Below are positions 6,051-59,154 of a stretch of DNA of 64,000 bases, piece by piece. The DNA comes from Opitutaceae bacterium. Lineage in GTDB: Bacteria > Verrucomicrobiota > Verrucomicrobiia > Opitutales > Opitutaceae. The position numbers were made by a program, and so were the translations under genes. Each line of letters starts with the position of its first letter. Position 1 is the first letter of the stretch. Where the stretch lies: contig JAIXQE010000086.1 in assembly GCA_027485815.1 (NCBI GenBank), forward strand, positions 1 through 64,000, in the 5' to 3' direction. The notes under the pieces are model-generated. The model saw only the letters and a list, made by a program, of their open reading frames with translations, was not told where the DNA came from and made no database searches.

Positions 6051-6055
6051 TTGGA

Positions 6056-18495: not shown

Positions 18496-19884
18496 TCAGC
18501 GCGGCGCCGCGGCCGGGGCCGGCGGGTCCTCGTTTGGCGTGCCGCGCCAGCGCGGGGCGGCGTTGTCCCGGTCCCACGCCTCCCAGCGGGCGCGCAACTC
18601 CGCCGCCACCGCGGGCTGGGCGGCGGCCAGGTCGCGGGTCTCCCCCGGATCGGCCGCGAGGTCGTACAATTGCCAGCCGCTGTTCGTCCGGGCCTCGAAG
18701 TCGCGCCAATCGACCAGCTTCCAGCGCCCCTGGCGCACCGCCCGCTGCGGCCCGAAGCGCCAGAAGAGCGCGTCCCGGGCGGGCGCCGCCGCCTGGCCGG
18801 CCAGCACCGGGAGCAGGTTGACGCCGTCCAGCGAGCCTTCGGGCGCGACGCCCGCCGCAGCGAGGGCGGTGGGCGCGAGGTCGAGCGCCGAGACGGGGAC
18901 CGCGCACGTCGTGCCCGCCGGGAGGCGGCCGGGCCAGGCAGCGAGGAAGGGCACGCGGATGCCGCCCTCGAACATCTGCCCCTTGTCGCCCCGCAGCGGC
19001 GCGTTGCGGCCCGTGTTGTAGGCGAAGAACGGCTTGCGCCCGGCGCCGCCATTGTCGCTGAGGAAGAAGATCAGGGTGTCGCGGTCGCGCCCCGTCGCGC
19101 GCAGGTGCGCCGTGAGGCGGCCGACGGCGTCATCGAGGCCGAGGAGGAGCGAGAGGTAGCCGCGGCGGGCCGGGTCCTGCACCGCGGCCGGGAGGCGGGC
19201 GAGGGTGTCGGGGGCGATCTCCAGCGGGGTATGGACGGCGTTGTAGGCTAGGAACAGGAACCAGGGCCGGCCCGCGTGGCGGTCGATGAAGCGCACGGCC
19301 TCGGTGGTGAACAGGTCCGTGGCGTGTCCCTCCACGCGCTGCGGCTCGCGGCCGCGGTGGATGAGGTTCAGCGACTGCGCGGTCCCGAACTTGGGCGCGG
19401 CGTCGGCCCGGAGCTGGAAGTTGTGCGCGCCGACCAGGAAGCCGTAGAACTCGTCGAAGCCGCGGGCCTGCGGGTGATGCCGCGGACTGAAGCCCAGGTG
19501 CCATTTACCCACCAGGCCCGTGGCATAGCCGGCGTCACGGAGGCGGTCGGCCAGGGTCCGCTCGCCCAGGGGCAGGCCGAGGTCCTCGGGCGCGCCGACG
19601 TGCGGGTTGAACTCGTGGCCGAAGCGCGTCTGGTACCGCCCGGTCAGGAACCCGGCGCGGGACGGGCTGCAATAGGGCGCCGACACGTAGCCGTCGGTGC
19701 AGCGCACGCCCGAGCGCGCCAGGGCGTCGAGGTGCGGAGTCGGGACCTCGGCGCCGCCCTGCACGCCCAGGTCCGCGTAGCCGAGGTCGTCGGCCATGAT
19801 GACGAGGACGTTGGGCCGGGGGGCCGGCGCGGCGAGGAGCGGGGCGGCCCACAAGGCCAGGAAGAGCAGGCGGGGGCGGGGCAT
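18496..19884 (-). CDS. Exported sulfatase, arylsulfatase A / GALNS-like
   Basis: A 462-aa sulfatase. The start at 19884 (MPRPRLLFLALWAAPLLAAP) is preferred over one ten codons earlier because it gives a clean signal peptide. It has PNVLVIMADDLGYADLG with metal aspartates D32/D33 and the formylglycine motif C72-S-P-S-R76 (CSPSRAGFLTGRYQ). GKWHLGFSPRHHPQARGFDEFYGF and FFLSDNGGAGRK are typical of the arylsulfatase A/N-acetylgalactosamine-6-sulfatase branch. The acting compartment is the periplasm or outside. Tail-to-tail with the haem protein ending at 18477, and 26 bp downstream of a rhomboid-like gene on the same strand. Confidence 0.92.
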   Translation of the reverse strand: MPRPRLLFLALWAAPLLAAPAPRPNVLVIMADDLGYADLGVQGGAEVPTPHLDALARSGVRCTDGYVSAPYCSPSRAGFLTGRYQTRFGHEFNPHVGAPEDLGLPLGERTLADRLRDAGYATGLVGKWHLGFSPRHHPQARGFDEFYGFLVGAHNFQLRADAAPKFGTAQSLNLIHRGREPQRVEGHATDLFTTEAVRFIDRHAGRPWFLFLAYNAVHTPLEIAPDTLARLPAAVQDPARRGYLSLLLGLDDAVGRLTAHLRATGRDRDTLIFFLSDNGGAGRKPFFAYNTGRNAPLRGDKGQMFEGGIRVPFLAAWPGRLPAGTTCAVPVSALDLAPTALAAAGVAPEGSLDGVNLLPVLAGQAAAPARDALFWRFGPQRAVRQGRWKLVDWRDFEARTNSGWQLYDLAADPGETRDLAAAQPAVAAELRARWEAWDRDNAAPRWRGTPNEDPPAPAAAPR

Positions 19885-39586: not shown

Positions 39587-40552
39587 ATGACCCTCGACCT
39601 CGCCGCGATCCGGGACGCGCACGAGCGCATCCGACCCCACGTCACGCGGACGCCGGTCCTGGCGGGCGGCTCCCTCGACGCGGCCTGCGGGGGTCGGCTG
39701 TTCTTCAAGTGCGACAACCTGCAGCAAGGCGGCGCCTTCAAGGCCCGCGGGGCCGCCAATGCGGTGTTCTCCCTGTCCGCGGCGGACGCCGCGCGGGGCG
39801 TCGCCACCCACTCCTCCGGCAACCACGCCGCGGCCCTCGCCCGCGCCGCCCAGCTGCGCGGCATCCCCGCGCACATCGTGATGCCGCGCAACGCCGCCCG
39901 CCCGAAGGTTCGGCTCGTCGAGGCCTACGGCGGCCGCCTCACCTTCTGTGATTCCACCCAGGAGGCCCGCGAACGCACCTGCGCCGCCCTCCTCGCGGAG
40001 ACGGGCGCGAACCTCGTCCATCCCTTCGAGGACGAGCGCGTGATGGCGGGCCAGGGCACCGCCGCGGTCGAGTTCCTCGAGGACCTGCCCGACCTCGACG
40101 TCGTCCTGTGCCCGGTCGGCGGCGGCGGGCTCCTCGCGGGCACGGCGGTGGCGGTCCGCGCGCTGCGCCCGGCCGCGCGGGTGATCGGCACCGAGCCCGC
40201 GGGCGCGGATGACGCCGCCCGCTCGTTCCACGGGACGACGCGGGTGCCGATGACCGATCCGCGGACGATCGCCGACGGCCTGCGCACGACGATCGGGGAA
40301 CCCAACCTCGCGCTCGCCCGCCGCCACGTGGACGACCTCGTGACCGTCAGCGAGGCGGGCATCATCGCGGCGATGCGCCTGCTGTGGGAGACGCTCCGGG
40401 TCGTGGTGGAGCCCTCCGCCGCCGTGCCCTACGCCGCCGTGCTGGAGGGCCGGGTCGCGGCCGCCGGCCGCCGGGTCGGGATCATCCTCAGCGGCGGCAA
40501 CATGGACCTCGACGCCCCGCTGCCCTGGACCCGCACCCAACCCTCCCCGTGA
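39587..40552 (+). CDS. Threonine ammonia-lyase / serine racemase-like PLP enzyme
   Basis: A 321-aa fold-type II PLP enzyme. The PLP lysine is K52 in GGAFKARGA, SSGNHAAALARAAQ binds substrate, and the glycine-rich phosphate loop is CPVGGGGLLAG. There is no C-terminal ACT regulatory domain, so it is the short, catabolic type. That class includes threonine dehydratase TdcB-like, serine racemase and threo-3-hydroxyaspartate dehydratase, which sequence reading cannot separate. It should act in the cytoplasm on threonine, serine or a hydroxy-aspartate. Its stop codon overlaps the GTG start of the following esterase in a GTGA arrangement, implying translational coupling although a metabolic connection is not obvious. 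Confidence 0.88.
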   Translation: MTLDLAAIRDAHERIRPHVTRTPVLAGGSLDAACGGRLFFKCDNLQQGGAFKARGAANAVFSLSAADAARGVATHSSGNHAAALARAAQLRGIPAHIVMPRNAARPKVRLVEAYGGRLTFCDSTQEARERTCAALLAETGANLVHPFEDERVMAGQGTAAVEFLEDLPDLDVVLCPVGGGGLLAGTAVAVRALRPAARVIGTEPAGADDAARSFHGTTRVPMTDPRTIADGLRTTIGEPNLALARRHVDDLVTVSEAGIIAAMRLLWETLRVVVEPSAAVPYAAVLEGRVAAAGRRVGIILSGGNMDLDAPLPWTRTQPSP

Positions 40553-41286
40553 AACCGCTCCTCGCCCTCCTCCTCGCCCTCGCCGCGCTGGTGCTCGCCC
40601 GTGCCGCGGAAACGCCCCGCGTCTTTCTCGCCGGGGACTCCACGATGGCCGACAAGCCGCTCGACCTGCCGGAGCGCGGCTGGGGGATGGCCCTCGGGCC
40701 GCTCCTCCGCGAGGGCGTCGCCGTGCGCAACCACGCGATGAACGGCCGGAGCACGAAGAGCTTCCTCGACGAGGGGCGCTGGGCGAAGCTCGCCGCGGAG
40801 CTGCGACCGGGGGACTTCGTCCTCATCCAGTTCGCGCACAACGACGAGAAGCGCGAGGATCCGAAGCGGTTCACGGATCCGGCCACCACCTTCCGGGAGA
40901 ATCTCCGGCGATTCGTGCGCGAGGCCCGGGCGCGTGGGGCAGTGCCGCTGCTCGCGACGCCGGTGTGCCGCCGCAAGTTCGACGCTGCGGGCAAGTTGCG
41001 CGACACCCACGGAGATTATCCCGCCGCGGTCCGCGCGGTGGCGCAGGAGGAGCAGGTCCCGCTGCTCGACCTCCAGCGGGCGACGGCGGCCTGGCTGCAG
41101 CGGGAGGGGGACATCCCCTCGCGCCGTTTCTTCATGTGGCTCGCGCCGGGAGCGCACCCGCGGATCCCGGAAGGGCGCCAGGACGACACCCATTTCGTGG
41201 CGGCCGGGGCGGAGGCGGTCGCGGCGCTCGCGGTCGCGGCGATCCGGGAACAGAACCTGCCGCTCGCCCCTTGGCTGCGGCCGTAG
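40549..41286 (+). CDS. Secreted SGNH esterase, rhamnogalacturonan acetylesterase-like
   Basis: A 245-aa protein starting at GTG 40549, which overlaps the previous stop (GTGA) and begins a signal peptide VKPLLALLLALAALVLARA. SGNH blocks are all present: GDST with nucleophile S31, the Gly/Asn region NHAMNGRSTKSFLDEG, FAHND in block III, and the D212-D-T-H215 dyad (QDDTHFVAAG). GDSTMAD, GRSTKSF and FAHND are characteristic of the rhamnogalacturonan acetylesterase branch. That branch removes acetyl groups from galacturonate residues of the pectin backbone. Position next to L-rhamnose mutarotase supports a role with rhamnose-containing pectin. The longer frame upstream lies inside the preceding gene. 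Confidence 0.88.
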   Translation: MKPLLALLLALAALVLARAAETPRVFLAGDSTMADKPLDLPERGWGMALGPLLREGVAVRNHAMNGRSTKSFLDEGRWAKLAAELRPGDFVLIQFAHNDEKREDPKRFTDPATTFRENLRRFVREARARGAVPLLATPVCRRKFDAAGKLRDTHGDYPAAVRAVAQEEQVPLLDLQRATAAWLQREGDIPSRRFFMWLAPGAHPRIPEGRQDDTHFVAAGAEAVAALAVAAIREQNLPLAPWLRP

Positions 41287-41302: not shown

Positions 41303-41617
41303 TCAGTCGAGGTGGAATACCTCGCGCAACCCGCGGGACACCGGGCGCGCGTCGGGCGCGGCCGGCATCACGTCGGCCATCCGCCGCCACCAGCGGCGGC
41401 AGACGTCGGTCGCGGCAATCGCGGCCCAGCGCTCCTCGCTCTCGATCTCCGCATAGGCGAAGAGCTGCCGCGTCTCCTCGTGCAGGAAGATCGAATAGTT
41501 GTGGACGCCATGCGCGCGGAGCACCGCCTCGAGCTCCGGCCAGATCGGCTGGTGGCGGCGGGCGTACTCGGCCTCGGCACCGGGGTGGACGCTCATCACG
41601 AAGGCCTTGCGGATCAT
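41303..41617 (-). CDS. rhaM: L-rhamnose mutarotase
   Basis: A 104-aa protein, exactly the length of E. coli RhaM and nearly collinear with it: [71 protein letters not shown] and the [11 protein letters not shown] end. The catalytic Tyr18 and His22 are present. It interconverts alpha- and beta-L-rhamnopyranose, delivering the beta form for rhamnose isomerase. The start overlaps the stop of the upstream secreted-protein gene in an ATGA junction (41614-41617), so it is probably translationally coupled. RhaA/RhaB/RhaD are not in this window, but the neighbouring pectin acetylesterase and the sugar symporter fit a rhamnose pathway. Confidence 0.95.
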
Positions 41618-43368
41618 TTGCGGGGGGCGGGAGGCGGCGGTGGTTGCGGGGCGGGCGCGGCCGGACGTTCGAGGGTGGTCAACCCGTCGAGGAACGACTC
41701 CCGGGCGGGCGCGGACGCCGCGGGCGCGGGGGCGCCGGCGGGCGGCGGGGCGTCGAGGGAGGACCGGAGCAGTTGGAAGCGTTCCCGGTCGGCGGGTTCG
41801 CGGGCCAGCTTGATTCCGCGCTCGGCCATCGCCCTCGCCTCGGTCGGGAAGCCGCGGCGGTGGGCGAGCAGCGCGGCCTGCTGCAGCAGCGCCAGGTCGC
41901 GGGGGAAGCGGTTGAGCCCCTCGATCACCACGGCGAGGTGTTCCGCCTGCGGAGACACCACGGACTGCATCCAGGTTTCCGCGATCAGTCCGTACGTCGC
42001 CGCGAGCGGCGGCGGCTGCTTCAGCGCGGTGAACAGCGGGGTCAGCACGGCGGTAACCTGCGCCTCGCTCAGGCGGCCGTCCGGCGCGCCCGGCCGCCCG
42101 CGGGCCTCGTCCAGCCGCAGGCGGGCCAGCTCGACGTGGGCGCGGGCGCGGATCGCCCCGGATTGGGCGGCCGCCTCGAGGAAACGCCGTGCGCGGTCGC
42201 GGCGACCCGCCTCCAGCTCGTCGAGCCCCAGTGCCGCCAGCAGCCGCGGGTCGCGCTCGCCGCGCACGTAGGGCGCGATGAGCGCGTTGCGCGCGGAGTC
42301 GCCGTGGCCGCCGAGCCGCAGCACCTCGCCCTTGATGCGCCCGACGTCCGCGTCCGGGGCCGCCCGCAGCTCGACCGGCGGCGGCGGCGGCAGCGCCTCG
42401 CCCTTCTTGGCCTGGAAGCGCATCGCGTTGTAGACCGTGAACTCGCAGTGGCTCCGGATCTCGAGGGCCATCTGCCGGTAGGTGCGGTTGAAGCACTCCT
42501 TGAAGAGCTGCTCGCTCAGCGGCTCGCTGCCGAGCCGCGTCACGAACTGCAGGAACGGTTTCTGGTACTTCCGGTTGTTGCCGTAGAGGCAAAGGTGGAC
42601 GAACGCGTAGCACTGGGCCTTCCAGTAGCGCGTGCGCTGGCGCGGACCCTCCGTCCGCAGCATTTCCCCGAGGGGGACGAGGGCCTTGCGCGAGAGCACC
42701 TGGTTGAAGTCCCCGAGCTTCTCCGCGCCGAACCCGTCCCCGATCTGCCCGAAGGTGATCGTCTCGCGCGAGAAATCGATCGCGCCGAACAGCTGGACGA
42801 GGCCCTCCTCGAACCACGCCGGGGGCGGCGCCGCGAGCTGGCGCCGGATCAGGTGGCGGAAGTACTCGATGTAGAACGAGCGGTACGGGTCGCTCTCGAC
42901 CGTTTCCGCGTCGCTGAAGCGGAGCTCCTGCAGGGCGAAGTCGACGACGATCGCGGCGCGCTCCGGGTTCTGGAAGAACAGGCTGTTCATCGCGAACCGC
43001 TCCGCGCGGTCGCGCACGGGCAGGAACTCGTCGAACCCGCGCCCGCGGCCGCAGAGGATCAGCGCGGTCGGCACGGCGACCTGCCCGCGGGTCAGGCCCG
43101 GCATGATGATCTCGATCACCTGCTGCAGCAGCAGGAAGTCGGCGACGAAGCGCCGCGTCTCCCGCTCCGAGAGGCGCGAGAGGATCTCGAAGCCCGGGAT
43201 CTCCGCGTACCGCCACTCCTCGGGGGGCGGCAACACGCGCGAGTCAGTGACCTCGAACACGGGCAGCTCGACGACCGGGCCGGGCGCGGCCGGCGCCGCC
43301 GCCGGAGGCGTGGCAGCGGCCGCGGGAAGGGCCGCGAGGGTAGCCCAGAGAAGAAAACGGGAACGCAT
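41614..43368 (-). CDS. Secreted protein with degenerate gluzincin-peptidase fold (paralogue A)
   Basis: A 584-aa exported protein (signal peptide [19 protein letters not shown]). After a short linker comes V33-x-L-x-x-F-x-V-T-x-x-R44, then [20 protein letters not shown]. Residues ~70-340 resemble the peptidase-MA/DUF1570-like gluzincin fold. The PAWFEEGL block (183-190) is the usual W-x-x-E-G-x after the zinc site, but the HExxH position reads E168-Y-F-R-H172, losing the first His and catalytic Glu. A conserved [19 protein letters not shown] lies further on, then alanine/arginine-rich helical repeats resembling TPRs, and a Pro/Ala tail. It is probably non-proteolytic. No named family is recognised. 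6 bp separate it from its paralogue; its stop overlaps rhaM. Confidence 0.75.
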
Positions 43369-43374
43369 CGGGAT

Positions 43375-45162
43375 TCAGGGCCGGGGGGCCCCCGGGGCCG
43401 CCGCGGCGGGCGGCGGCGCGGCGGGGGGCGCGGGCGGAAGGGATTCCTTAAGGCCGGTGAAGCGCTGCCGTGCCTCGGGGGTAGGCGCGTACTTCACGCC
43501 ATGGTCGGCGAGGGCGTGGGCCGACTGGAGGTCGCCGGCGTCACGGGCCAGCACGCCGGCCTGGAAGACCGTCCGCAGTCGCGTCGGGAACAGCATCGCG
43601 CCCTCGACCATCAGCTTGGCCTCCTCGCGCGTCGGCGCGGTCGCGCTGCGCGCCCAGGTATCGCCGGCGACGTCGTAGACCGCCGGGAGCAGCGGCGGCT
43701 TCCCGTGCGCCAGCTGGAGCGGCGCGAGCACGGCGCGGGTTTGGGCCGGCGTCAGCTGGGTGCCCGCGCCGGGGGCCGCGAGCGCCTCGGCGAGCCGCAG
43801 GCGGGCAAGATCCAGGTTCGCCTCGGAGCGCCGCGCCCCCGCGGCGAAGGCGCCCTCGAGGAAACTGCGCGCCCGGGCCGCGTCGCCGTGGCGCTGCTCG
43901 TACAGGCCGAGCGCGGCCAGCAGGTACGGATCGCGCTCCCCGCGGGTGTAGGGGGCGACCAGCTCCGCCCGGGCCGGCTTCACCCGCCCGGCCAACACCA
44001 TCGCCTCGCCCTTGATGCGCCCCACCTCGGCCTGGGTCGCGTCGCGCAGCTCGACCGGCGCTGGCGGGACGATCACGTCCTCCTTCGACCGGTACTCGCG
44101 GTGCTGGTAGACCGTGAAGTCGATGTAGCCCCGGAGCTCCAGGAGCATCTGCTTGTAGGTGCGGTTGAAGACCTGACGGAACATTTCCTCGCTGGCGGGC
44201 TCGCGCGCCAGCCGCTGGAGGAAGGTGGCGAACGGCTTCTGGTACTTCCCGTTCAGGCCGTAGAGGCACATGTGGACGAACGCGTAGGCCTGCTTCGCCC
44301 AGCGGTTGTTGCCGAGCACGTTCGTCGCCTCCGAGGAGTCGTGCGCGACGGCGAAGAATTTATCCAGCGGCACGAGCGCCTTGCGCTGCAGCGCGGCGTT
44401 GAAATCACGGTCCTCCGCCGGCGCACCCGGCAGCGCCATCGACTCCGCGCCCTCTTCCCCTGCGCCCAGCGCGTTGAGCTGCTGCACCATCGCCGCCTGC
44501 GCCGAGATGGTGTTGGGGTCCTCCAGCTTGGCGAAGGAGATCCAGCGGCGGTCGAACTCCATCCGCATGATGATCTGCGACAGCCCCTCCTCGACCCACG
44601 CCGGCAGCCGCGGCTCGCTGCTGCTCAGTAGGTAGCGCACGTACTCGCGGTACAGCTGCTTGTCGTGGTCGACGGAGACCATCCCGGAGTCCGTGCCCGT
44701 GGCCGCGTCGTTCAGGCCGTCGACGTTGAGGACGTTCAGGGTCGTGGCCTGCAGGTCGATGACGATCGCGGTCTGCGCCCCCTGCTTGAGGAAGACGCTG
44801 GCGAAGCCCGCGTCGGGCACGTAGCGGCCCGCGGGGATGAAATCCTGGAACTTGCCCCGCTTCGCGCAGAGGATCAGCGACGTGGTCTGCGGATGCCGCC
44901 CCGGCTGGGGCCAGACGTGGCCCAGCGCCTGCCGGAACATCGCGAAGTCCCTCAGCAGCCGCTGGGTCGCGCGGTCCGACGCGTTGCTCAGGACCTCGAA
45001 GCCGGGGATCGCCGCGTAGCGCCACGCCTCCGGGGGCGGCAGCTCGCGGTTGTCGGTCACCACGAAGCGGGGCAGTTCGACAACGGGTTCCGCGGCGGGG
45101 GCGGTTTCCGCGGCGGCCAGCGGGCCGGCGAGCGCCAGCAGGGCGGCGAGGGGCAGTCTCAT
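43375..45162 (-). CDS. Secreted protein with degenerate gluzincin-peptidase fold (paralogue B)
   Basis: A 595-aa exported protein, paralogous to the next gene downstream. Signal peptide MRLPLAALLALAGPLAAAE, then V28-x-L-x-x-F-x-V-T-x-x-R39 and ELPPPEAWRYAAIPGFEVLSNASDRATQ. In the peptidase-like domain, LPAWVEEGL (187-194) is intact, but the HExxH slot is E173-Y-V-R-Y177, with neither histidine. The strongly conserved middle block is QAYAFVHMCLYGLNGKYQKPFATFLQRLA and FNRTYKQMLLELRGYIDFTVYQ. The C-terminal third is helical with TPR-like spacing and a Pro/Ala tail. Function is unknown; a non-catalytic, outer-membrane or periplasmic binding role is plausible. It follows the SSS symporter gene after 86 bp and precedes paralogue A by 6 bp. 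Confidence 0.75.
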   Translation of the reverse strand: MRLPLAALLALAGPLAAAETAPAAEPVVELPRFVVTDNRELPPPEAWRYAAIPGFEVLSNASDRATQRLLRDFAMFRQALGHVWPQPGRHPQTTSLILCAKRGKFQDFIPAGRYVPDAGFASVFLKQGAQTAIVIDLQATTLNVLNVDGLNDAATGTDSGMVSVDHDKQLYREYVRYLLSSSEPRLPAWVEEGLSQIIMRMEFDRRWISFAKLEDPNTISAQAAMVQQLNALGAGEEGAESMALPGAPAEDRDFNAALQRKALVPLDKFFAVAHDSSEATNVLGNNRWAKQAYAFVHMCLYGLNGKYQKPFATFLQRLAREPASEEMFRQVFNRTYKQMLLELRGYIDFTVYQHREYRSKEDVIVPPAPVELRDATQAEVGRIKGEAMVLAGRVKPARAELVAPYTRGERDPYLLAALGLYEQRHGDAARARSFLEGAFAAGARRSEANLDLARLRLAEALAAPGAGTQLTPAQTRAVLAPLQLAHGKPPLLPAVYDVAGDTWARSATAPTREEAKLMVEGAMLFPTRLRTVFQAGVLARDAGDLQSAHALADHGVKYAPTPEARQRFTGLKESLPPAPPAAPPPAAAAPGAPRP

Positions 45163-45248: not shown

Positions 45249-47285
45249 TCAGGGCGCCGCCCAGCGCAGCAGGACGACGAACAGCAGCACGATGGCACCC
45301 GAGAGCGCGCAGCAGGCGAGGAAACCGACGGTGTCGACGCGGTCCCAGCGGCAGAACTCCCAGTTGGAACGCGGCCACAGCTTGGTGTGGTCGAAGCGGT
45401 CCGGCCGCCGCTCCGTCTCCGCGAGGGCCACCTGCTCCAGTTCGGGGGTCGCCCCCACCGGGGTCTTCATCCGGCCATAGAAGCGGGCCACCCGCACCGG
45501 ATCGGTCGGACGCGTCACCAGGCTCACGCCCAGCAGCACGAGGAACGGGAATGCGGCGTCGAAGAGGAACTGAAGCGTGACCCGCTCGGTCCGGGACCGG
45601 CCGGCCAGGTCGATGCCGCATTGGGAAAGCAACCAGCCCTCGAAGTTGAAGCGGTTCAGGCCGGGGCCGGCCACCCACGGGCTGGTCGGGTCCCCGGGTC
45701 GGGCACGCACCAACTGGTTGAAGTACACCGGGGCCGGGGCGGCCCCCGGGGCGCCCGCGGCGACCGTCAGCGCCGGGTGATCCCGCAGTCCGGGCACGTG
45801 CGCGGCCGTCCACGGCACCACCAGCACCACCAGTGTCGTCAAGAGGACACACCACCAGACGGCGGCGGCCGTGACGCGCCGCCAGAAGAACGTCACCAGC
45901 ACCGCCGCGCCGAAGGGCAGGTTCACCGTGAGCACCAAATTGATGATCGAGAAGAAGTCCCGCATCAGCCAACCGGCGACGGTGCCGAGGACGAGCACCG
46001 CCACGATGGTGCAGCGGGCGAGAAAGACCCCCTGGGCCTCCGAGAGGTCGGGCCAGACCTGGCGGAACACGTTGCGGACGAAGAGCGAGGAGATGGCGAG
46101 CGCCTTGGCCGCGAGGGTCGACATCGTGCCCGCGATGACCCCGGCGAGCATCAGGCCGGCCAGGCCCGGGCCGAGCAGGCGGTTGGACATCGCGCCCCAC
46201 GCGGTGTCCGGGTCGGACAGCCCGCCGGGACCGAACAGGGCCACCGCGATCAGGCCCGCGAAGGCCCAGAGGATGATCATCAGCCGCTTCAGGTAGGTGC
46301 CCGACACCCCCGAGCGGGCGGCGAACTCGTCCCGCGCCGAACCGCAGATGCCCATGTTGTGGCTCAGGCCGGCGTTCTGGACCACGCTGACCAGCAAAAT
46401 GGCGGCGAGGCCCAGCACCGAGAACTGGCCCGCGCCCCCGGAGCCGAACAGGTCGAAGAAATGGGCGGGGACCTTTCGCCCCAGCTCGGCCCAGCCGCCG
46501 ATCGCCGCGAGCCCGGTCGGAATCAGGATCACGGAGAACGCGATGATCAGGATGCTCTGCAGCCCCTCGTTGGCCGCGGCCGCCGCCATCCCCCCCATCA
46601 CGATGTAGGTTCCCACCACCAGCGTGAACACCGCGTAGAACAGGACATCATTCAACAGGGTCACCTGGCTGCTGAGCTCCCCGTGCGCCGCGCGGTCGCG
46701 CAACTGCTCCAGGCGGGACTGGGCGGCGGGCGCGAGCCGACCCTCGCGCTGCTCCCGCTCGAGGGACTTCCACTCGCGGTAGCCCTCGACCCCGGCGCGC
46801 TCGCCCGCCGTCCACGCCGACTCCGGCTTCACCACCAAGGAGGAGGCGATCTTGTACGCCGTGACGTTGCCGAACCCGAGGAAGACGCAGGCGACCAGGA
46901 TCTGGAAAGTCGCGTAGAAGAGGCTCAGCCCACGGCTGGCGAAGCGGTCCTCGAACAGGTCCGAGAGCGTGGTCAGCCGCACCCGGCGGAACCAGACGTT
47001 CATGAACCAGAAGTAGGGGTTCATGAAGACGGTCTGGAACGAGAGCCAAGAACCCGGCGCCCCCTGCTGGTAGACGAAGCTCGCGGTGCTGACCGCCCCC
47101 TGCGGTTCGGTGGAGTTCCCGAAGTTGAGGAAAAACTGGTACAATTTCCCCAGCCCCCGCCCGGCCAGGAAGAACCCCTCCTCCGACTTCGCCGCCCGCG
47201 AGGCCCGGTAGCCCAGGTAGAGGACGGCGAGGAGGTACGCGGCGATGATCGCCACGTCGAGGACGTGCAGGGAGCCGAGGAGCAT
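45249..47285 (-). CDS. Sodium:solute symporter (SSS family)
   Basis: A 678-aa membrane protein with about 13-14 hydrophobic segments. The start MLLGSLHVLDVAIIAAYLLAVLYLGYRAS gives the usual first helix; SEEGFFLAGRGLGKLYQFFLNFGNSTEPQGAVSTASF and TTLSDLFEDRF follow the SSS/SLC5 pattern. A cytoplasmic or periplasmic insert of ~60 residues (KPESAWTAGERAGVEGYREWKSLEREQ) and a hydrophilic C-terminal extension (FYGRMKTPVG...FDHTKLWPRSNWEF) are typical of large PVC-type members. It should import a sugar or related solute with Na+. Divergence from a LacI-type regulator and position before rhaM make rhamnose or a rhamnoside a reasonable guess, not a demonstrated substrate. Confidence 0.9.
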   Translation of the reverse strand: MLLGSLHVLDVAIIAAYLLAVLYLGYRASRAAKSEEGFFLAGRGLGKLYQFFLNFGNSTEPQGAVSTASFVYQQGAPGSWLSFQTVFMNPYFWFMNVWFRRVRLTTLSDLFEDRFASRGLSLFYATFQILVACVFLGFGNVTAYKIASSLVVKPESAWTAGERAGVEGYREWKSLEREQREGRLAPAAQSRLEQLRDRAAHGELSSQVTLLNDVLFYAVFTLVVGTYIVMGGMAAAAANEGLQSILIIAFSVILIPTGLAAIGGWAELGRKVPAHFFDLFGSGGAGQFSVLGLAAILLVSVVQNAGLSHNMGICGSARDEFAARSGVSGTYLKRLMIILWAFAGLIAVALFGPGGLSDPDTAWGAMSNRLLGPGLAGLMLAGVIAGTMSTLAAKALAISSLFVRNVFRQVWPDLSEAQGVFLARCTIVAVLVLGTVAGWLMRDFFSIINLVLTVNLPFGAAVLVTFFWRRVTAAAVWWCVLLTTLVVLVVPWTAAHVPGLRDHPALTVAAGAPGAAPAPVYFNQLVRARPGDPTSPWVAGPGLNRFNFEGWLLSQCGIDLAGRSRTERVTLQFLFDAAFPFLVLLGVSLVTRPTDPVRVARFYGRMKTPVGATPELEQVALAETERRPDRFDHTKLWPRSNWEFCRWDRVDTVGFLACCALSGAIVLLFVVLLRWAAP

Positions 47286-47412: not shown

Positions 47413-48444
47413 ATGCCGCCCGTCACCCCCACCCTGCGCACGCTCGCGAAGGAGCTCGGCCTCTCACGCACCACCGTCTCCGACGCGCTGCGCGGGTCGG
47501 CGCGCGTGGATCCCCGGACCGCGGAGCGGGTGCGGCGGGCGGCGGAGGCGGCCGGCTACCGGCGCAATCCGCTCGCGGGCGCGCTGATGTCCGAACTGCG
47601 GCGCTCACGCGGCGGCGAATTCCGCGGGGTGCTCGCGGCGGTGGACTTCCATGAGGCCCGGCGGCCGGAGGGGGCGGCCGCGTACCACGGCAAGCTGGCG
47701 GAGGGGCTGGGCGAGCGCGCCGCCGCGCTCGGCTTCAAGGTGGAACGCTTCACCGCGGGCACCGAGGGTCTGAGCGTGCCCCGCCTGGGCTCCATCCTGC
47801 AGTCGCGGGGCATCGGGGCCGTCGCGCTGCTGCCCTCCTGGGTGCCCCCGGACCTCTCCGCGCTCGACTGGACCCACTTCACCGGCGTGTACACGGATTA
47901 CCTGATCGAGCGCCCCCGGCTGCACGCCGTCTGCTCGGACCAGTACCGCTCGCTCCTCGGGGCCCTGCGCCTGCTCCACGCCCGGGGCTACCGCCGGCCG
48001 GGGCTATACCTGCAGCGGCGGCAGGACGAGCGCCTGCAGTTCCGCTGGAGCGCGGCCTTCCGCGCTTTCCAGGAGTCGCTGCCCAAGGCTGATCGCACGC
48101 GTCCCCTGGTGGTCGAGGCCTACGCGCAGCCGGCCTTCACCGCATGGTTCCGCCGGGAGCAGCCGGACGTCGTCCTCAGCCACCACGCGCCGGCGATCGG
48201 GTGGATGGAGGCGGACGGCGCCCGCCTGCCTCGGACCCACGGCTTCGCCTGCCTGAACCTCGACATGGCCGCGCGCCCCGCCGCGGGCCTCGACCTGCAG
48301 CCACGCCTGCTCGGCGCCCGCGCCGCCGAGCTCCTGATCGCCCAGTTACAGCGCAACGAGACCGGCATCCCCGAATGGCCCTCGACCACGATGATCTCGG
48401 CCCGCTGGACCGAGGGCCCGACCCTGCGCCCGCCCGCCGGCTGA
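47413..48444 (+). CDS. LacI/GalR family transcriptional regulator
   Basis: A 343-aa protein. The N-terminal helix-turn-helix is TLRTLAKELGLSRTTVSDALRGSARVDPRTAERVRRAAEAAGYRRNPLAGALMSELR (about 8-64), complete with the hinge-helix region. The effector-binding domain follows (GVLAAVDFHEARRP ... GVYTDYLIERPRLHAVCSDQYRSLLGALRLLHARGYRRPGLYL). The R-x-N-P-L-A-x-x-L-M-x-E-x-R pattern after the HTH is the variant common in Verrucomicrobia. The start at 47413 is fixed by the HTH and by a palindromic operator directly before it; a longer frame upstream would run through that operator. It probably represses the divergent symporter/rhaM operon. Confidence 0.92.
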   Translation: MPPVTPTLRTLAKELGLSRTTVSDALRGSARVDPRTAERVRRAAEAAGYRRNPLAGALMSELRRSRGGEFRGVLAAVDFHEARRPEGAAAYHGKLAEGLGERAAALGFKVERFTAGTEGLSVPRLGSILQSRGIGAVALLPSWVPPDLSALDWTHFTGVYTDYLIERPRLHAVCSDQYRSLLGALRLLHARGYRRPGLYLQRRQDERLQFRWSAAFRAFQESLPKADRTRPLVVEAYAQPAFTAWFRREQPDVVLSHHAPAIGWMEADGARLPRTHGFACLNLDMAARPAAGLDLQPRLLGARAAELLIAQLQRNETGIPEWPSTTMISARWTEGPTLRPPAG

Positions 48445-52184: not shown

Positions 52185-53411
52185 TCAGGTCCGCGGTCCG
52201 CCCTGGGCCAGGTGGCGCGCGCGCAGGCGCAGGCCGTTCAGGCGGATGAAACCCGTCGCGTCGCTCTGGTTGTACCAGCTCTTGACCCCTTCCATCGAGG
52301 CGACGTTGAGGTCGTAGAGCGAGTAGCGCGACTTCCGGCCGCAGGTGATGATGTTCCCCTTGTAGAGCTTCAGGCGCACGGTGCCCGTGACGTACCGCTG
52401 GCTCTCGTCGATGAGGGCCTGCAGCGCCTCGCGCTCGGGGGCGAACCAGAACCCGTAGTAGACCAGCTCGGCGTACTTCGGGATCAGCGAGTCGCGCAGG
52501 TGCATCACCTCGCGGTCCAGCGTGAGCGACTCCACCTGGCGGTGCGCCTGCATCAGGATCGTGCCGCCGGGGGTCTCGTAGACGCCGCGGGACTTCATGC
52601 CGACGAAGCGGTTCTCGACCAGGTCGACGCGACCGATGCCGTGCTTGCCGCCGAGGCGGTTGAGGGCGCGGAGGACGCCCGCGGGGGAGAGCTTGCGGCC
52701 GTTGACCGCGACGCAGTCGCCGCGCACGAAGTCCAGTTCCACGTACTCGGCGCGGTCCGGCGCGTCCTCCGGGGAGACCGAGAGCTTGAACATCTCCTTG
52801 TTCTCCTTGGTGGTCGGGTCGAACCACGGATCCTCGAGGATGCCGGCCTCGTAGGAAATGTGGAGGAGGTTGCGGTCCATCGAGTACGGCTTCTTCAGCG
52901 AGGCCTCCACCGGGATGCGGTGCTCGGCGCAGTACGCGATCATCTCCGCGCGGCCCGGGAAGCGGTCGCGGAAGGTCTCCAGCTTCCACGGGGCGAGGAT
53001 CTGCAGGCGCGGGTTGAGCGCCATGTAGGTGAGCTCGAAGCGGCACTGGTCGTTGCCCTTGCCGGTGGCCCCGTGGGCGACGGTGTCGGCCTTCTCCCGG
53101 CGCGCGATCTCCACCTGCGCCTTCGCGATCAGCGGCCGCGCGATCGAGGTGCCCAGGTAGTACTGGCCCTCGTACACCGCGTTGGCCCGGATCATCGGGA
53201 AGATGAAGTCGCGCGCGAACTCCTCGGTCAGGTCGAGGGTGTAGTGACGGGCGGCGCCGGTCGCGCGGGCCTTGCGCGGCAGCCCCTTCAGTTCCTCCTC
53301 CTGGCCGATGTCCGCGGCGAAGGTGACGATCTCGGCGTCGTAGGTTTCACGGAGCCACTTGACGATGACGGACGTGTCGAGTCCGCCCGAGTAGGCGAGG
53401 ACGATTTTCAT
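52185..53411 (-). CDS. argG: Argininosuccinate synthase
   Basis: A 408-aa cytosolic enzyme joining citrulline and aspartate with ATP to argininosuccinate. The N-terminal PP-loop is AYSGGLDTS (6-14), followed by [12 protein letters not shown] and, further on, [16 protein letters not shown] and [13 protein letters not shown], all as in ArgG type 1. Length is normal for the family. It follows argF after 22 bp and is 71 bp upstream of prfB. The partner enzyme ArgH is not encoded in the window. Confidence 0.97.
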
Positions 53412-53433
53412 GGGAAGGGGAAAGGGGCCGGGC

Positions 53434-54384
53434 TCAGCGGCGCCGGCCGGCGAGGCGGGTGAGGATCGCCTTCTGGATGTGGAGGCGGTTCTCGGCCTCG
53501 TCGAAGATCAGGGAACGCGGGTTCGCGAGCACCTCGGGCGAAACCTCCTCGCCGGGATGCGCGGGGAGGCAGTGCAGGAAGAACGCATCGGGGCGGGCGG
53601 CGGCGAAGAGCTGGGGCGTGACGGCGTAGGGCGCCATCTGCCGGCGGCGGGCGCGGGTCTCCTCCTCCTTGCCCATGCTCACCCAGACGTCGGTGTAGAC
53701 CACATCGGCGTCGCGCACCGCCTCGTACGGGTCGGTGGTGAAGGTGTAGCCGCCGGTGAGGCCGTGCTCCCGCAGGAGGGCGTCGATCGCGGGGGTGGGC
53801 GCGAAGGCCTTGGGGCCCGCGAGGGCGACCTTCATCCCGAAGAGGTTGCCGCCGAGGATCCAGGAATTGGCCACGTTGCAGGCCGCGTCGCCGAGGAAGG
53901 CGAGCTTGCGCCCGCGGAGGGAATTGAACAGCGCCGGGCCGGACGTGCCGCGCGTCCAGCGCTCCGCCAGGGTGAAGGCGTCCGCGTAGATCTGGCAGGG
54001 GTGCAGCAGGTCGGTGAGCGCGTTGATCACCGGCACGGAGCCCGCGGCGGCCAGCCGCACGACGTCCTCGTGGTCGAAGGTGCGGACGATCAGGCCGTGG
54101 ACGAAGCGGGAGAGGACGCGCGCGGTGTCCTCGATCGACTCGCCGCGGCCGAGTTGGATGTCATTGCGGTTGAGGAAGAGCGGGCGGGCGCCGAGCTCGT
54201 GGAGGCCGACCTCGAAGGAGACGCGGGTGCGGGTGGACGACTTGGAGAAGATGAGGGCCCACGTTTGTCCCTCAAGGGGGCGGGCACCCTTCCGGCCGCG
54301 GCCGCGCTTCAGGTCGCGGGCCAGGGCGAACAGCCCGGGCAACGCGGAGCGCGGGAAGTCGGTCTCTTGGAGGAAGTGCGGCAT
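53434..54384 (-). CDS. argF: Ornithine carbamoyltransferase
   Basis: A 316-aa enzyme making citrulline from ornithine and carbamoyl phosphate. It has the carbamoyl-phosphate motif SKSSTRTR (47-54, STRTR), HPCQIYAD and the ornithine-loop [11 protein letters not shown] near the C-terminus. The N-acetylornithine variant would normally differ in the 80s loop and in HCLP; the intact HCLPAHPGE favours a plain ornithine transcarbamylase, and argJ in the same cluster supplies free ornithine. A short Arg/Lys-rich insert ([11 protein letters not shown]) occurs near residue 30. It lies between argD and argG on one strand with short gaps. Confidence 0.95.
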
Positions 54385-54441
54385 CGGAAAGGGTCGGACC
54401 CTAGGCGGCGGCGGCGCGGCGAACGAGGAAAAAACCGCCGC

Positions 54442-55662
54442 TCAGGCCGCCGCGCCGAGCACCGCGCGGAGGATCGCCACGGACTCCGCCAGCTCGGCGG
54501 GGGTGACGTTCAGCGGGGGCAGCAGGCGGATGACGTTGCCGCCGGCCGCAGCGGCGAGCAGACCGCGTTCGCGCAGGGCCGCCAGCACGGGCGCGGGATC
54601 CGCGGCAAACTGGAGCCCGACGAGGTAACCCTGGCCGCGCACCGCCAGGACCTTCGCCGGATGCGCGGCCGCGAGGGCCCGCAGCTCGGCGAGCCACGGG
54701 GCGCTGCGCGCGCGGACGGCCGCGAGCAGATCCTCGCGCTCCAGCACGTCGAGCACGGCCAGCGCGGCGGCGCAGGCGAGCGGGGTGCCCCCGAAGGTCG
54801 TGCCGTGGTTGCCGGGCTGGAACAGGTCCGCGTGCGGCTCGCTGATCCAGATCGCGCCGATGGGGAAGCCGCCGCCCAGGCCCTTCGCCATCCCGATCGC
54901 ATCCGGCCGGACGCCCGCGTGCTCGAAGGCGAAGAAGCGTCCGGTCCGCCCGATGCCACACTGGACCTCATCGAGGAGCAGCAGCAGGTTGCGCTCGGAG
55001 CACAGGCGGCGCAGGCCCAGCAGGAACTCAGGGGTGCACGGCTGGATGCCGCCCTCGCCCTGGATCGTCTCCACGAAGATCGCGGCCGTCTCGTCGTCGA
55101 CCAGCCGCGTGAAGCCCTCGAGGTCGTTCAGGTCCGCGAAGGCGAAGCCCGGCACGAGGGGGCGGAAGCCGCCCTGGATCTTCTCCTGCGGGGTTGCGCT
55201 CATGCCGCCGAACGTCCGGCCGTGGAAGGCGTTCCGCGCACAGATCACCTTGTAACACTTGCCCTCGACGCCACCGGCCTTCCGGCGCCCGTGGAGGCGG
55301 GCCAGCTTCAGCAGGCCCTCGTTCGCCTCGGCGCCGCTATTGCAGAAGAACACGCGGCCCGGCCCGGCGTGGCCGACGAGCCGACGGGCCAGTTCGCCCT
55401 GCCCCGGGTTGCGGAACAGGTTGCTCACGTGCACCAGCTCCGCGGCCTGCCGCTGCACGGCGGCGACCCAATGCGGGTGACAGTGGCCCAGCGCCGACAC
55501 CGCGATGCCCGAGGTGAAGTCGAGGAAGCCGCGCCCGGCGTCGTCCCACACGCGGGTACCCGCGCCGCGCACCAGCGTCAGCGGGGCGCGCGCGTAATTG
55601 CGCATCACGTGGGCGTCATAGAGGTCGGCGGTGGAGGCGCGGACGACCGGGGAGGTTTCCAT
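54442..55662 (-). CDS. argD: Acetylornithine aminotransferase
   Basis: A 406-aa class III PLP aminotransferase. Blocks are FCNSGAEANEGLLKLARLHG (cofactor phosphate), HGRTFGGMSATPQ, LLLLDEVQCGIGRTGRFFAFEH and GMAKGLGGGFPIGA, whose lysine carries PLP. It transfers an amino group from glutamate to N-acetylglutamate semialdehyde to give N-acetylornithine. The start METSPVVRASTADLYDAHVMRNYAR fits the family; the longer open frame reaching 55887 overlaps argB and is a shadow. It sits between argB and argF on the same strand (56- and 57-bp gaps), consistent with one transcript. Confidence 0.95.
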   Translation of the reverse strand: METSPVVRASTADLYDAHVMRNYARAPLTLVRGAGTRVWDDAGRGFLDFTSGIAVSALGHCHPHWVAAVQRQAAELVHVSNLFRNPGQGELARRLVGHAGPGRVFFCNSGAEANEGLLKLARLHGRRKAGGVEGKCYKVICARNAFHGRTFGGMSATPQEKIQGGFRPLVPGFAFADLNDLEGFTRLVDDETAAIFVETIQGEGGIQPCTPEFLLGLRRLCSERNLLLLLDEVQCGIGRTGRFFAFEHAGVRPDAIGMAKGLGGGFPIGAIWISEPHADLFQPGNHGTTFGGTPLACAAALAVLDVLEREDLLAAVRARSAPWLAELRALAAAHPAKVLAVRGQGYLVGLQFAADPAPVLAALRERGLLAAAAGGNVIRLLPPLNVTPAELAESVAILRAVLGAAA

Positions 55663-55718
55663 GGGAAAAAGGAGTGGGCCGGCCGGCCGTCGCAGGCCGC
55701 GGGCGGCCGGCGCGGCGC

Positions 55719-56600
55719 TCAGCCCAACACGATCTCGGTGCCGATGCCCCGGTCGGTGAAGATCTCGAGGAGCAGCGAATGGGCGAGCCGGCCGTCGATG
55801 AAGTGCACGCGCTGCACGCCCTCCTGCAGGGCCCGCACCGCGCTCTGAACCTTGGGCCGCATTCCCTTGTCGATCACGCCCCGGCACTTGAGCTCCTCCA
55901 CCTGGCCGGTCTTGAGGGTGGAAATCAGCGAGCCCGGGTCCGCGGGATTGGAGAGGAGGCCCGGGACGTCGCTCATGTACACCAACCGGCGGGCGCGCAG
56001 GGCGCTCGCGACCCGGCCCGCGGCGAGGTCGGCGTTGATGTTGTAGGGCTTGCCGTCGTACCCCTCGGCCACCGGCGAGATGATCGGGATGAAGCCCTCG
56101 CTGATCTCCTTCTTGATCAGCTTCACCTTCACCTCGGTGACGTCGCCCACGTAGCCCAGGTCCACCGGGTTGCCGTCATCGTCCGCGGCCAGCTTCTCGC
56201 ACACGAGCACGCTGTCGCCCGGGAGCCCCTTGGGCCGGGCCTTGGCCGAGGCGACCGCCTCGCAGACGTCGCGGTTGACGATCTCGTCGAGCGTCTTCTT
56301 GACCACCGCAATGGTCGCGGCGTCGGTCACCCGGAGGCCGTTGACGAACGACGCCTTGAGACCCGACTCCGCCATCGCCTTGGTGATCGCCTTGCCGCCG
56401 CCGTGCACCACGACGACGTTGATCCCGCAGGCGGCGAGGAACGCGATGTCGTGCGCGACCCGCGTGCGGGCCGCCGGATCGGGGTCATCCATGAAGCTGC
56501 CCCCGTACTTCACGACGAACGTGGAGCCCCGGAAATCCTGGATGTAAGGCAGCGCCTCGAGCAGCACCTTCGCCTTGGCGGTCACTTCGGCGACGTTCAT
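55719..56600 (-). CDS. argB: Acetylglutamate kinase
   Basis: A 293-aa amino acid kinase that phosphorylates N-acetylglutamate, the usual control step of arginine synthesis. Motifs: [12 protein letters not shown] (28-39; most homologues have KYGGNAM), [11 protein letters not shown] for the nucleotide, [29 protein letters not shown], and the C-terminal [27 protein letters not shown] three-residue lysine-rich segment before the end could carry arginine feedback, but the N-terminal helix typical of arginine-sensitive forms is short here; sensitivity is undecided. It is the first gene of the argBDFG series and is divergent from argJ with 198 bp between them. Confidence 0.95.
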
Positions 56601-56798
56601 CGGGCGGTCAGGACGCCCGGCCGGCGGCCGGGAGGGAGCGGGGGAAGGCGGAGCGCACGTTCACGGAATCAATCGAAGAGGGGCGACTAAGGCACACCCG
56701 GCCGGCATTTCCACCAAAAACTTCGCGCACCGGGCGCTGGCCGCGCCGCGTCCGGTTTTTGCCTTCACTCCTCGCCGCGGCGCGCACACTTGTCTCGC

Positions 56799-58115
56799 GT
56801 GCCCAGCACGCAACTCACCTTCGCCGACCGCGCCGCGCACCGCGCGTGGCTCGCCGCCCAATCCTCCCTGCCCGCCGGATTCCGCGTCGGCCGCACCAGC
56901 TTCGACTTCACGCCGCGCGAGGCGCCGAAGCCCTCCCGGATGAACCTCACGGTGATCGCGCTGGACCAGCCGACCCCCGCGTTCGCCGCGCTCTTCACGC
57001 GCAACGCCTTTCCCGGCGCGCCGGTGATCATCGGCCGCACCCGGCTCGCGGAGCCCACCCTCGGGGCCGTGGTGATCAACAACAAGATCTCCAACGTCTG
57101 CGCGCCCGACGGCGTCGCCACCGCCGAGCGCGTCTGCGCCGCCGCAGCCGCGCACCTCGGGCTCTCGCCGCGCCAGGTGCTCCCCTCCTCCACCGGCGTC
57201 ATCGGCTGGGCCCTCCCCGAGGAGGCGATGATCGGCGCCCTGCCGGCCGCGGTAGCCGCCCTCGCTCCCGGCTCCGTGCTCCCCGCCGCCGAGGGCATCG
57301 TCACCACCGACCTCTACCCGAAGGTCCGCCGCGCGGACCTCGGCGGCGGCAGCATCGTCGGCATCGCCAAGGGCGCCGGGATGATCGAGCCGAACCTCGC
57401 CACGATGCTCGTCTACCTGCTGACCGACATCGCCGTGCCCCGCGCGGAACTGCGCCAGATGCTCGCGCGCGCCACCGACGCCAGCTTCAACGCCATCAGC
57501 ATCGACAGCGACACCAGCACCTCGGACACCGTGGTCGCGCTGTCCTCGGGCCGCGTCCCCTTCACGGACTGGGCCGCGTTCGAGCGCGCGCTCCACCAGG
57601 TATGCCGGGACCTGGCCGAGGACGTCGTGCGCAACGGCGAGGGCGTGCGCCACGTGATCCGCGTCACGGTGCGCGAGGCGGCGAGCCTCGCGCTGGCCCG
57701 CGCCCTCGGCAAGGCGGTCGTCAACGGCCCGCTCTTCAAGTGCGCCGTCGCCGGCAACGACCCGAACGTGGGCCGCCTGATCCAGGCGATCGGCAAGCAC
57801 GTGGGCGCGCACGCCCCGGGGACCGACCTCTCGGGCCTGCGGGCCTCCCTGGGCGGCATCGAGATCTTCTCCGGCGGCGTGTTCCGCCTCAATCCGGAGA
57901 AGGAGGCCGCACTCGTGGCCCACCTCCGCGGGGCGGAGCTTTACGCCAGCCGCCCGGCAGCCGACGGGGTCTTCACCGCACCGATCGACTTCCCGCCCCA
58001 CGAGCGGGCGGTGGAGCTGGAGATCGCCCTCGGCAACGGCGCCGCGTCCGCGACCGTCATCGGCGGCGACCTCACCCACGAATACGTGAGCGAGAACGCG
58101 GACTACCGCTCCTGA
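56799..58115 (+). CDS. argJ: Bifunctional ornithine acetyltransferase / N-acetylglutamate synthase
   Basis: A 438-aa (GTG start) Ntn-type enzyme. The self-cleavage site is in GIAKGAGMIEPNLATML, where T202 (A-T bond) becomes the N-terminal nucleophile of the beta chain. Other blocks: PSSTGVIGW, SIDSDTSTSDTV and CAVAGNDPNVGRLIQAIGK, and the EYVSENADYRS end. It transfers acetyl from N-acetylornithine to glutamate, closing the acetyl cycle, and so replaces ArgE and possibly ArgA. No ATG precedes the domain: GTG 56799 is chosen; TTG 56790 would add three residues. It is convergent with argC, 13 bp apart. Confidence 0.95.
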   Translation: MPSTQLTFADRAAHRAWLAAQSSLPAGFRVGRTSFDFTPREAPKPSRMNLTVIALDQPTPAFAALFTRNAFPGAPVIIGRTRLAEPTLGAVVINNKISNVCAPDGVATAERVCAAAAAHLGLSPRQVLPSSTGVIGWALPEEAMIGALPAAVAALAPGSVLPAAEGIVTTDLYPKVRRADLGGGSIVGIAKGAGMIEPNLATMLVYLLTDIAVPRAELRQMLARATDASFNAISIDSDTSTSDTVVALSSGRVPFTDWAAFERALHQVCRDLAEDVVRNGEGVRHVIRVTVREAASLALARALGKAVVNGPLFKCAVAGNDPNVGRLIQAIGKHVGAHAPGTDLSGLRASLGGIEIFSGGVFRLNPEKEAALVAHLRGAELYASRPAADGVFTAPIDFPPHERAVELEIALGNGAASATVIGGDLTHEYVSENADYRS

Positions 58116-58128
58116 ACGGGGGACCGCC

Positions 58129-59154
58129 TCAGGCGAGGCCCGCCGTCTCCGGGAAGCCGCACCAGAGGTTCATGATCTGGACCGCCTGGCCGCTGGCCCC
58201 CTTCATCAGATTGTCCTCGGCCACGGTGAGCACGAAGTTCCCCGTCCGGGGATCGTGCGCCGCCGCGAGGTCGACGCGGTTGGTGCCGACGACGTGCGCC
58301 GTGTCGGGCGTCTCCCCGGTCGCCAGCAGCTGGACGAACGGCCGCCCCGCGTAGGCCGCCTGCCACGCGGCCTGGAGCGCCGGGAGATCCGCACCGGGGG
58401 CCGCCGGCACGGTGATGGTGGTGGCGATGCCGCGCCGCATTGGCGCCAGGTGCGGGTTGAACTGGATCACCGTCGGCGCGCCGGTGTGCAGCGCGAGCTG
58501 TTCCTCGATCTCCGCGAGGTGCCGGTGCTTCACCAGCCCGTAGGCCTTGATGCTCTCGGCGCGCTCGGCGAACAGGTACATCTCCTCCGCCTTCCGGCCG
58601 GCACCGCTCACCCCGCTGTAGGAATTCACAACGATGTGCTGCCGCGCGATGACGCCCGCGCGCAGCAGGGGCACCAGCGGAACGAGGATGCTCGTCGGGT
58701 AACACCCGGGCGCAGCCACCAGCCGGGCCTCCGTGCGCCACGCGGGCGCGGTGATCTCGGGGAGCACGAACCGGGCGGAGGGCAGGAGCTCCGGCGCGGG
58801 GTGCGGCCCATAGTAACGCTCGTAGGTCGCCTGATCCGCGATCCGGAAGTCCGCGCTCAGGTCGATGACCCGCTTGCCCGCGGCCACCAGGACCCGCGCG
58901 TAGGCGGCGGCGGCACCGTGGGGCAGGGCCAGGAACAGCAGGTCCAGATCGGAGGCCGCCAGCGCGGCCGCGTCGGAATCCGTGAACTGCAGGCCCCGGT
59001 CCACCCCGCGCAGGGCCGGGATCACCGCGGCCAGCCGCTTGCCCGCCTGACTGCGGGACGTGACCGCCGCCAACTGCACCTGCGGGTGCGCCAGGAGCAG
59101 TTTGACCAGGACTTCACCAGAGTAACCGGATGCACCGACAATGCCGACTTTCAT
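58129..59154 (-). CDS. argC: N-acetyl-gamma-glutamyl-phosphate reductase
   Basis: A 341-aa NADPH-dependent reductase. It opens VGIVGASGYSGEVLVKLLLAHP (nucleotide site GASGYSG, 7-13); the catalytic cysteine is C151 in APGCYPTS, and HRHLAEIEEQL carries the conserved acid/base histidine. It reduces acetylglutamyl phosphate to the semialdehyde used by ArgD. The start at 59154 (MKVGIVGASGYSG) is fixed by the Rossmann fold; the frame extends upstream to 59226 without reason. It lies outside the argBDFG series, convergent with argJ, and has its own upstream terminator region from the porin gene. Confidence 0.96.
   Translation of the reverse strand: MKVGIVGASGYSGEVLVKLLLAHPQVQLAAVTSRSQAGKRLAAVIPALRGVDRGLQFTDSDAAALAASDLDLLFLALPHGAAAAYARVLVAAGKRVIDLSADFRIADQATYERYYGPHPAPELLPSARFVLPEITAPAWRTEARLVAAPGCYPTSILVPLVPLLRAGVIARQHIVVNSYSGVSGAGRKAEEMYLFAERAESIKAYGLVKHRHLAEIEEQLALHTGAPTVIQFNPHLAPMRRGIATTITVPAAPGADLPALQAAWQAAYAGRPFVQLLATGETPDTAHVVGTNRVDLAAAHDPRTGNFVLTVAEDNLMKGASGQAVQIMNLWCGFPETAGLA

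Follow-up and report, generated by a model that had tools for sequence, protein, structure and literature searches.

Closest described systems

TonB is usually discussed as the partner of outer-membrane receptors, and as a partner that is hijacked by colicins. Here, we describe by computational analysis two adjacent genes, named A and B, from an Opitutaceae bacterium (assembly GCA_027485815.1), which lie on the minus strand of the first 64,000 nucleotides of contig JAIXQE010000086.1 (this whole stretch is referred to as the window), and whose products combine a predicted gluzincin-type peptidase fold with a decayed zinc site and a TonB-box-like tag of the receptor type behind the signal peptide. 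A TonB box is a short segment that pairs with TonB via beta-strand augmentation. In the same manner TolA, which has a C-terminal domain of the TonB fold, binds soluble TolB at its disordered N-terminus (PMC8928145, excerpt). There is flexibility in the box sequence, many receptors share one TonB, and a box is also found in colicins 5 and 10 (PMC11658791, excerpt). With TolB and the colicins, non-receptor partners of TonB or TolA that bear such a segment are already known. Pseudo-peptidases are likewise a known kind of protein (PMC11266112, excerpt). For marine Verrucomicrobiota, rhaM and symporters are described in methyl pentose use; the excerpted account reports no SusCD genes and does not mention proteins resembling A or B (PMC8857213). 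Among the open-licence papers listed in our searches there was no soluble family with receptor-type TonB boxes, which is weak evidence of absence, and those listed for DUF1570 likewise contained no soluble TonB-box protein of this kind.

The DUF1570 (PF07607), Peptidase_MA_2 (PF13485) and M9 collagenase (PF01752) gluzincins share with A and B the predicted fold, a slot aligned with HExxH and a W-x-x-E-G block, and HExxH-bearing relatives of the pair score at or near those models. A and B differ from these families in being without HExxH and without a Pfam match, and in the added N-terminal tag. TonB-dependent receptors and transducers resemble the pair in the motif at the TonB-box position, and one relative of the pair (L011) also carries an STN domain; in contrast to the receptors, A and B are without a Pfam Plug or barrel and have a body of gluzincin and tetratricopeptide repeat (TPR) domains instead. 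The likeness to TolB of the Tol-Pal system would lie in A and B being soluble exported proteins that offer their N-terminus to a transducer of the TonB/TolA type (PMC8928145, excerpt). TolB, however, has a beta-propeller and uses TolA, whereas A and B carry a TonB-receptor motif on a pseudo-peptidase body, and no TolB-type propeller is seen in their models, which consist of an M9-like and a helical domain. BepA of Escherichia coli keeps its metal site, and we know of no TonB-box-like tag on it. As an envelope protein of gluzincin-TPR architecture it resembles A and B (PMC7950410, excerpt), but it belongs to family M48 and the pair to a different peptidase family.

A tandem pair of exported proteins with a gluzincin-type fold

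Gene A (43375..45162, 595 amino acids) and gene B (41614..43368, 584 amino acids) are separated by 6 bp, and each is predicted from sequence and model to encode an exported pseudo-peptidase with a TPR domain. A signal peptide without a lipobox cysteine was recognized by eye at the start of both, and we infer that both proteins are exported and periplasmic. They are 41% identical over 556-557 residues (BLASTP, E 3e-121 to 5e-121) and, judged by their sequences, are true paralogues. This agrees with the first-pass annotation of the window, which had described tandem paralogues with the same coordinates, strand and gap and with two common blocks, W-[FV]-E-E-G-L and YAFVH-x-CLYG-x-N-x-KYQKPF, all of which were found again. 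Scans against Pfam and NCBIfam gave nothing over cut-off for either protein. A third, distant paralogue lies on contig C27 of the genome, an assembly of 4.08 Mb in 232 contigs with 97% completeness.

AlphaFold2 models built with 58 family sequences reached a mean predicted local distance difference test score (pLDDT) of 90.8 for A and 90.1 for B. In the fold comparison with VIA-align 2, M9 collagenase peptidase domains rank first for both proteins, matching residues 45-369 of A (44056..45030, minus strand; Z 13.7, root-mean-square deviation 3.9, 242 aligned) and residues 50-331 of B (42376..43221, minus strand; Z 14.0, deviation 3.9, 246 aligned). The C-terminal part, at about residues 372-575 of A (43438..44049, minus strand) and 337-545 of B (41734..42360, minus strand), is helical in the models and resembles TPR proteins in VIA-align 2 and, for B, in Foldseek, with the Pfam TPR models under cut-off. 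Helical TPR rows themselves reach Z 12-13 in VIA-align 2, values which the tool warns can be commonplace, and therefore the gluzincin assignment is based on the series of collagenase matches combined with sequence homology. Foldseek with B returned TPR-type helical-repeat proteins and no collagenase among the 50 matches listed, and a profile search of the sequences of solved structures gave TPR matches and no peptidase among 16 rows. As modelled, the M9 likeness is one of fold only and says nothing on collagenase activity. The gluzincin core and the TPR-like helices that had been proposed for the pair are thus both present in the predicted structures.

Decay of the zinc site

The hallmark of active gluzincins, HExxH, is absent from A and from B. 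In four distant relatives (L012, L013, L014 and L016), HEYIH, HEFIH or HELVH occupies the columns that read REYVR in A (residues 172-176, 44635..44649, minus strand) and IEYFR in B (residues 167-171, 42856..42870, minus strand), and because these relatives align there, the segment corresponds to HExxH, one residue upstream of the earlier register. The first-pass annotation, which had read the slot as EYFRH in one protein and EYVRY in the other, was therefore right about the segment and one residue off in its register. Since the true slot lies one residue earlier, the last histidine of EYFRH falls outside it and is no zinc ligand. Nor is the loss more complete in the protein with EYVRY, as had been thought, because both histidines are gone from both proteins, with the glutamate kept in each. 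What stands is the central claim of a decayed zinc site in a gluzincin-type fold, which the models, the fold comparison and the HExxH relatives uphold.

HExxH is kept in six relatives from the window's own family (HEYVH twice, HEGVH, HEATH, HEGTH and HECAH), and none bearing it turned up in the window's own genome. Downstream of the slot, the block of the third-ligand type is present by alignment as AWVEEGL in A (44581..44601, minus strand) and AWFEEGL in B (42799..42819, minus strand); its glutamate before the glycine (E192 of A), which we take to be the third zinc ligand, is at least 90% conserved over 58 rows, and G193 is invariant. The kinship with peptidase families is visible through the relatives and not through the pair, as neither A nor B matches DUF1570 or M9 collagenase over cut-off, whereas L012 reaches 22.5 bits against DUF1570 (cut-off 22) with L014 and L016 just under, and L012, L013 and L014 stay under the cut-off for M9 collagenase.

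Over 110 rows the slot most often reads REYVR (25), REYVH (14), REYIR (13), KEYFR (8), IEYFR (7) or AAYFR (7), with four rows gapped. The form REYVH suggests a stepwise loss in which the first histidine went first, and the B lineage is the more eroded across orthologues (AAYFR and similar). The recurrence of REYVR-type slots and the conserved glutamate before the glycine would also suit an enzyme whose old groove performs a new chemistry with that glutamate and the residues of REYVR; yet the slot drifts (KEYFR, AAYFR, RQYSR, RNYVT) and members of the B lineage lose even the first glutamate, unlike an active site, so that we regard this as very improbable.

A receptor-type tag behind the signal peptide

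Right behind the signal peptide, both A and B carry the pattern VVELPxFxVTD, which is the most informative feature of the pair and was absent from the first-pass annotation. It has the form hydrophobic-x-[LM]-x-x-[FY]-x-V, and TonB-dependent receptors of this genome show this form directly before the plug. The genome contains 99 Plug matches (98 over cut-off) and two proteins with a TonB C-terminal domain, both adjoining exbD-like genes identified by eye. Read in the exact frame of the plug, the strict motif occurs no more than 85 residues upstream of it in 58 of 60 receptors; an earlier survey of 30 Plug matches with called genes had found it in 12, with several loci missing the upstream side of the plug, and nine of the 99 matches fall outside both surveys. 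Against a matrix trained on 57 receptors, with A and B excluded from training, the tag of A (PVVELPRFVVTDNR, residues 26-39, 45046..45087, minus strand) scores 17.6 bits and that of B (residues 31-44, 43237..43278, minus strand) 21.3 bits, the training receptors having a median of 28.4 and a minimum of 11.0.

The tag is restricted to receptors and the A/B family among the genes sampled. The sample from the own genome comprised 743 genes, namely 593 of at least 100 amino acids from 40 genome stretches and the window, and 150 on contigs without Plug matches. At least 12 bits were reached by 32 of them: 29 Plug proteins, one sub-threshold Plug match, A and B. Within the 593-gene sample, which includes some receptors of the training set, the 8-bit and the 12-bit level are each reached by 29 of the 32 Plug proteins, and none of the 150 genes on Plug-free contigs reaches 12; the third paralogue scores 9.6 bits. 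Four of 652 non-family genes from related loci, scored over residues 12-95, reach 12 bits, all four with Plug matches (two of them under the Pfam cut-off). In a control with the simple motif, one of 560 mid-protein stretches and five of 729 non-family N-termini were positive, at least three of these five in receptors. Pfam found neither Plug nor beta-barrel in A or B, and their models are gluzincin-TPR. Over 58 rows, the mean majority share is 0.67 in the tag columns, 0.28 in the preceding linker and 0.54 in the peptidase-like domain.

Distribution of the family and origin of the tag

With B as query, matches were obtained in 12 of 132 genomes from the same order, including 7 of the 10 that belong to the window's own family. 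In a profile search across the phylum, 20 of 288 genomes were positive, namely 17 of 25 same-family genomes and three others via the TPR part only. Scanning named genomes yielded 59 loci, with titles that name Opitutaceae, its genera, Opitutia/Opitutae or unspecified Verrucomicrobia. The alignment of homologues, as reported above, showed that some keep HExxH in line with the slot of A and B.

We built a quick tree of 51 rows without the tag, from which the fragments L211, L215, L224 and L226 had been dropped beforehand and in which L006 and L069 are near-identical and so counted twice. The tag rule was adjusted after a looser rule had taken signal peptides for tags and a stricter rule had missed B. 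Among the 47 scorable rows (four have truncated starts), 32 have the tag only, nine HExxH only, six neither and none both. The clade of A and B (33 rows) is split from the rest with a Shimodaira-Hasegawa-like approximate likelihood ratio test value of 96 in each of two trees, and the tag needs two changes, one for a large clade and one for L234 on a very long branch. One relative, L011 (L011:73-2367, the same place as L217), has, in this order, a signal peptide by eye, an STN match of 28.6 bits against a cut-off of 28.4, and the tag, an arrangement that reads as a TonB-transducer-like front end on a pseudo-peptidase (gluzincin-TPR) body.

Proposed role of the pair

Because they unite a dead protease fold with a receptor-type tag, A and B may be non-receptor TonB partners. 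We give a probability of roughly 45% to the reading that their clade of pseudo-peptidases gave up catalysis and acquired, in uptake and recycling operons, the role of a TolB-like adaptor that engages TonB. In this reading, the pair belongs to an expanded, exported pseudo-peptidase family whose members occur mainly in Opitutaceae. The ancestor would have been a gluzincin-TPR enzyme of the DUF1570/M9 type that then lost its zinc histidines, and the clade carries a segment of the receptor TonB-box type at its mature N-terminus. The C-terminal domain of TonB would engage this tag on soluble A and B by beta-strand addition, as TolA does with the N-terminus of TolB, and a partner protein, a peptide or a glycan would be bound by the TPR domain and the inactive groove of the peptidase fold. 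The operon would set the substrate, making the pair TonB-linked envelope adaptors for uptake of rhamnose-containing material. A soluble TonB client would be the simplest mechanism; TonB binding, adaptor function and a part in rhamnose uptake are what we infer for A and B. The binding, assembly or sensing role suggested earlier fits this reading but is vague, and it missed the receptor-type tag. Slightly more tentatively, the lineage, with receptor TonB boxes in place of catalysis, may represent a class of soluble adaptors addressed by proton-motive force.

If true, TonB of Opitutaceae would serve not only its many receptors but also dedicated soluble clients in the manner of TolB, each tied to a single uptake or recycling operon (rhamnose, muropeptides, others). 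A conserved and apparently soluble non-receptor family with the motif of the receptors would widen the cellular role of TonB. The case is also a clear one, with an addressing tag on a non-catalytic clade and catalytic sister lineages without the tag in the same bacterial family.

Several observations weigh against this reading. Both tags score under the median of the receptors, 12 bits are missed by 35 of the 90 gene calls of the family (partly from truncated starts), the receptor-matrix sample covers one quarter of the genome, and the receptor motif itself is taken for a TonB box from its position before the plug. L234 is tagged outside the main clade, and uniting every tagged row in a single clade is borderline (p 0.058). 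Six relatives are without HExxH and without the tag, so that loss of catalysis does not need the tag, and the conserved operon is without a receptor gene. Finally, residues 39-50 behind the tag exceed it in conservation (0.79 against 0.67) and pLDDT in the region of the tag is about 72-87, for which reason the segment may be structural.

A structural strand, or mimicry of receptor N-termini, is also what the tag would be, without TonB binding, if A and B were envelope chaperones of the BepA type, in which a pseudo-protease and TPR body handles outer-membrane proteins such as receptors. The gluzincin-TPR architecture of the models speaks for such a chaperone, as does the example of E. coli BepA, an M48 metalloprotease with contacts between its TPR and protease parts and a role in outer-membrane biogenesis (PMC7950410, excerpt), and the 99 Plug matches of the genome are potential clients. 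The genes of the A/B family, however, track particular uptake or recycling operons and not outer-membrane assembly genes, and we consider the chaperone unlikely.

Operon context

The first gene of the operon encodes an SSF-family symporter (45249..47285, minus strand; Pfam SSF, gene call and synteny). It is followed by A, B and rhaM for L-rhamnose mutarotase (41303..41617, minus strand; Pfam rhaM and gene call), the start of which shares 4 bases with the end of B. A LacI-type regulator (47413..48444, plus strand; Pfam LacI and synteny) diverges from the symporter, and a GDSL hydrolase (40549..41286, plus strand; Pfam Lipase_GDSL_2), acetylesterase-like by eye, converges with rhaM. Genes were called with a codon log-odds caller on this high-GC DNA. 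The order SSF symporter-A-B-rhaM is complete in 16 of 60 loci (the 59 from named genomes and the window); of the others, some end at a contig edge and some come from different branches. The 4-base overlap into rhaM recurs in 16 of the 22 loci having the B-rhaM junction, and of the 26 loci that contain the symporter cluster, 23 also have the LacI cluster. Since order, overlap and LacI neighbour recur across loci, the pair is a stable part of the rhamnose operon, and the earlier proposal that it was kept together there is borne out by synteny.

The co-transcription order with symporter and mutarotase is equally what one would expect if A and B were periplasmic binders of oligosaccharides or peptides that pass their ligand to the SSF symporter, the tag then being a relic of a fusion with the 5' end of a receptor gene. 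The setting of another branch of the family, between an epimerase and a GH3 glycosidase and then Amidase_2, agrees with such a binder, and the STN-tag order in L011 suggests that the front end descended from a receptor or transducer. Erosion is what one would expect of a relic, but L30, P31 and V35 of the tag are conserved at 98%, 97% and 100% over 58 rows, which makes this alternative, too, an improbable one beside the TonB-linked adaptor.

The idea of sigma/anti-sigma signalling around the pair was considered and dropped, as no such gene was seen in the conserved operon, to which the search was confined.

Other branches of the family and other regions of the window

Neighbours in the related loci were identified from one scanned protein per cluster. 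At six loci (L069, L072, L075, L076, L087 and L089), family members of one branch are flanked by an enolase-superfamily epimerase (dipeptide-epimerase-like by eye) on one side and a GH3 glycosidase on the other, and in five of these loci an Amidase_2 gene comes next; the set looks like one for murein recycling. At seven others (L058, L059, L061, L063, L064, L068 and L081), another branch is followed by a small protein on the opposite strand with a sub-threshold match to chagasin-type inhibitors (I42), a case of an inhibitor-like gene adjoining a dead peptidase. Further neighbours in related loci are NIPSNAP, GDSL and DHH-CBS proteins. A separate branch (L229, L230, L231 and L232) is without HExxH and without the tag and has W-[MI]-x-Q-G at the site of the Glu-Gly block, which by sequence would be an independent loss of the zinc site.

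Elsewhere in the window, positions 1165-19884 hold four sulfatase-like gene calls (by eye), two TonB-dependent receptors (Pfam) and further exported proteins, and appear, by eye and partly by Pfam, to be a locus of the sulfated-glycan type. An arginine-biosynthesis-like run was recognized by eye at 52185-59154 (argG, argF, argD, argB, argJ and argC). The tRNA-Ala that ARAGORN places at 19312-19388 lies inside a sulfatase-like gene call of the opposite strand and is probably a false positive in GC-rich coding DNA.

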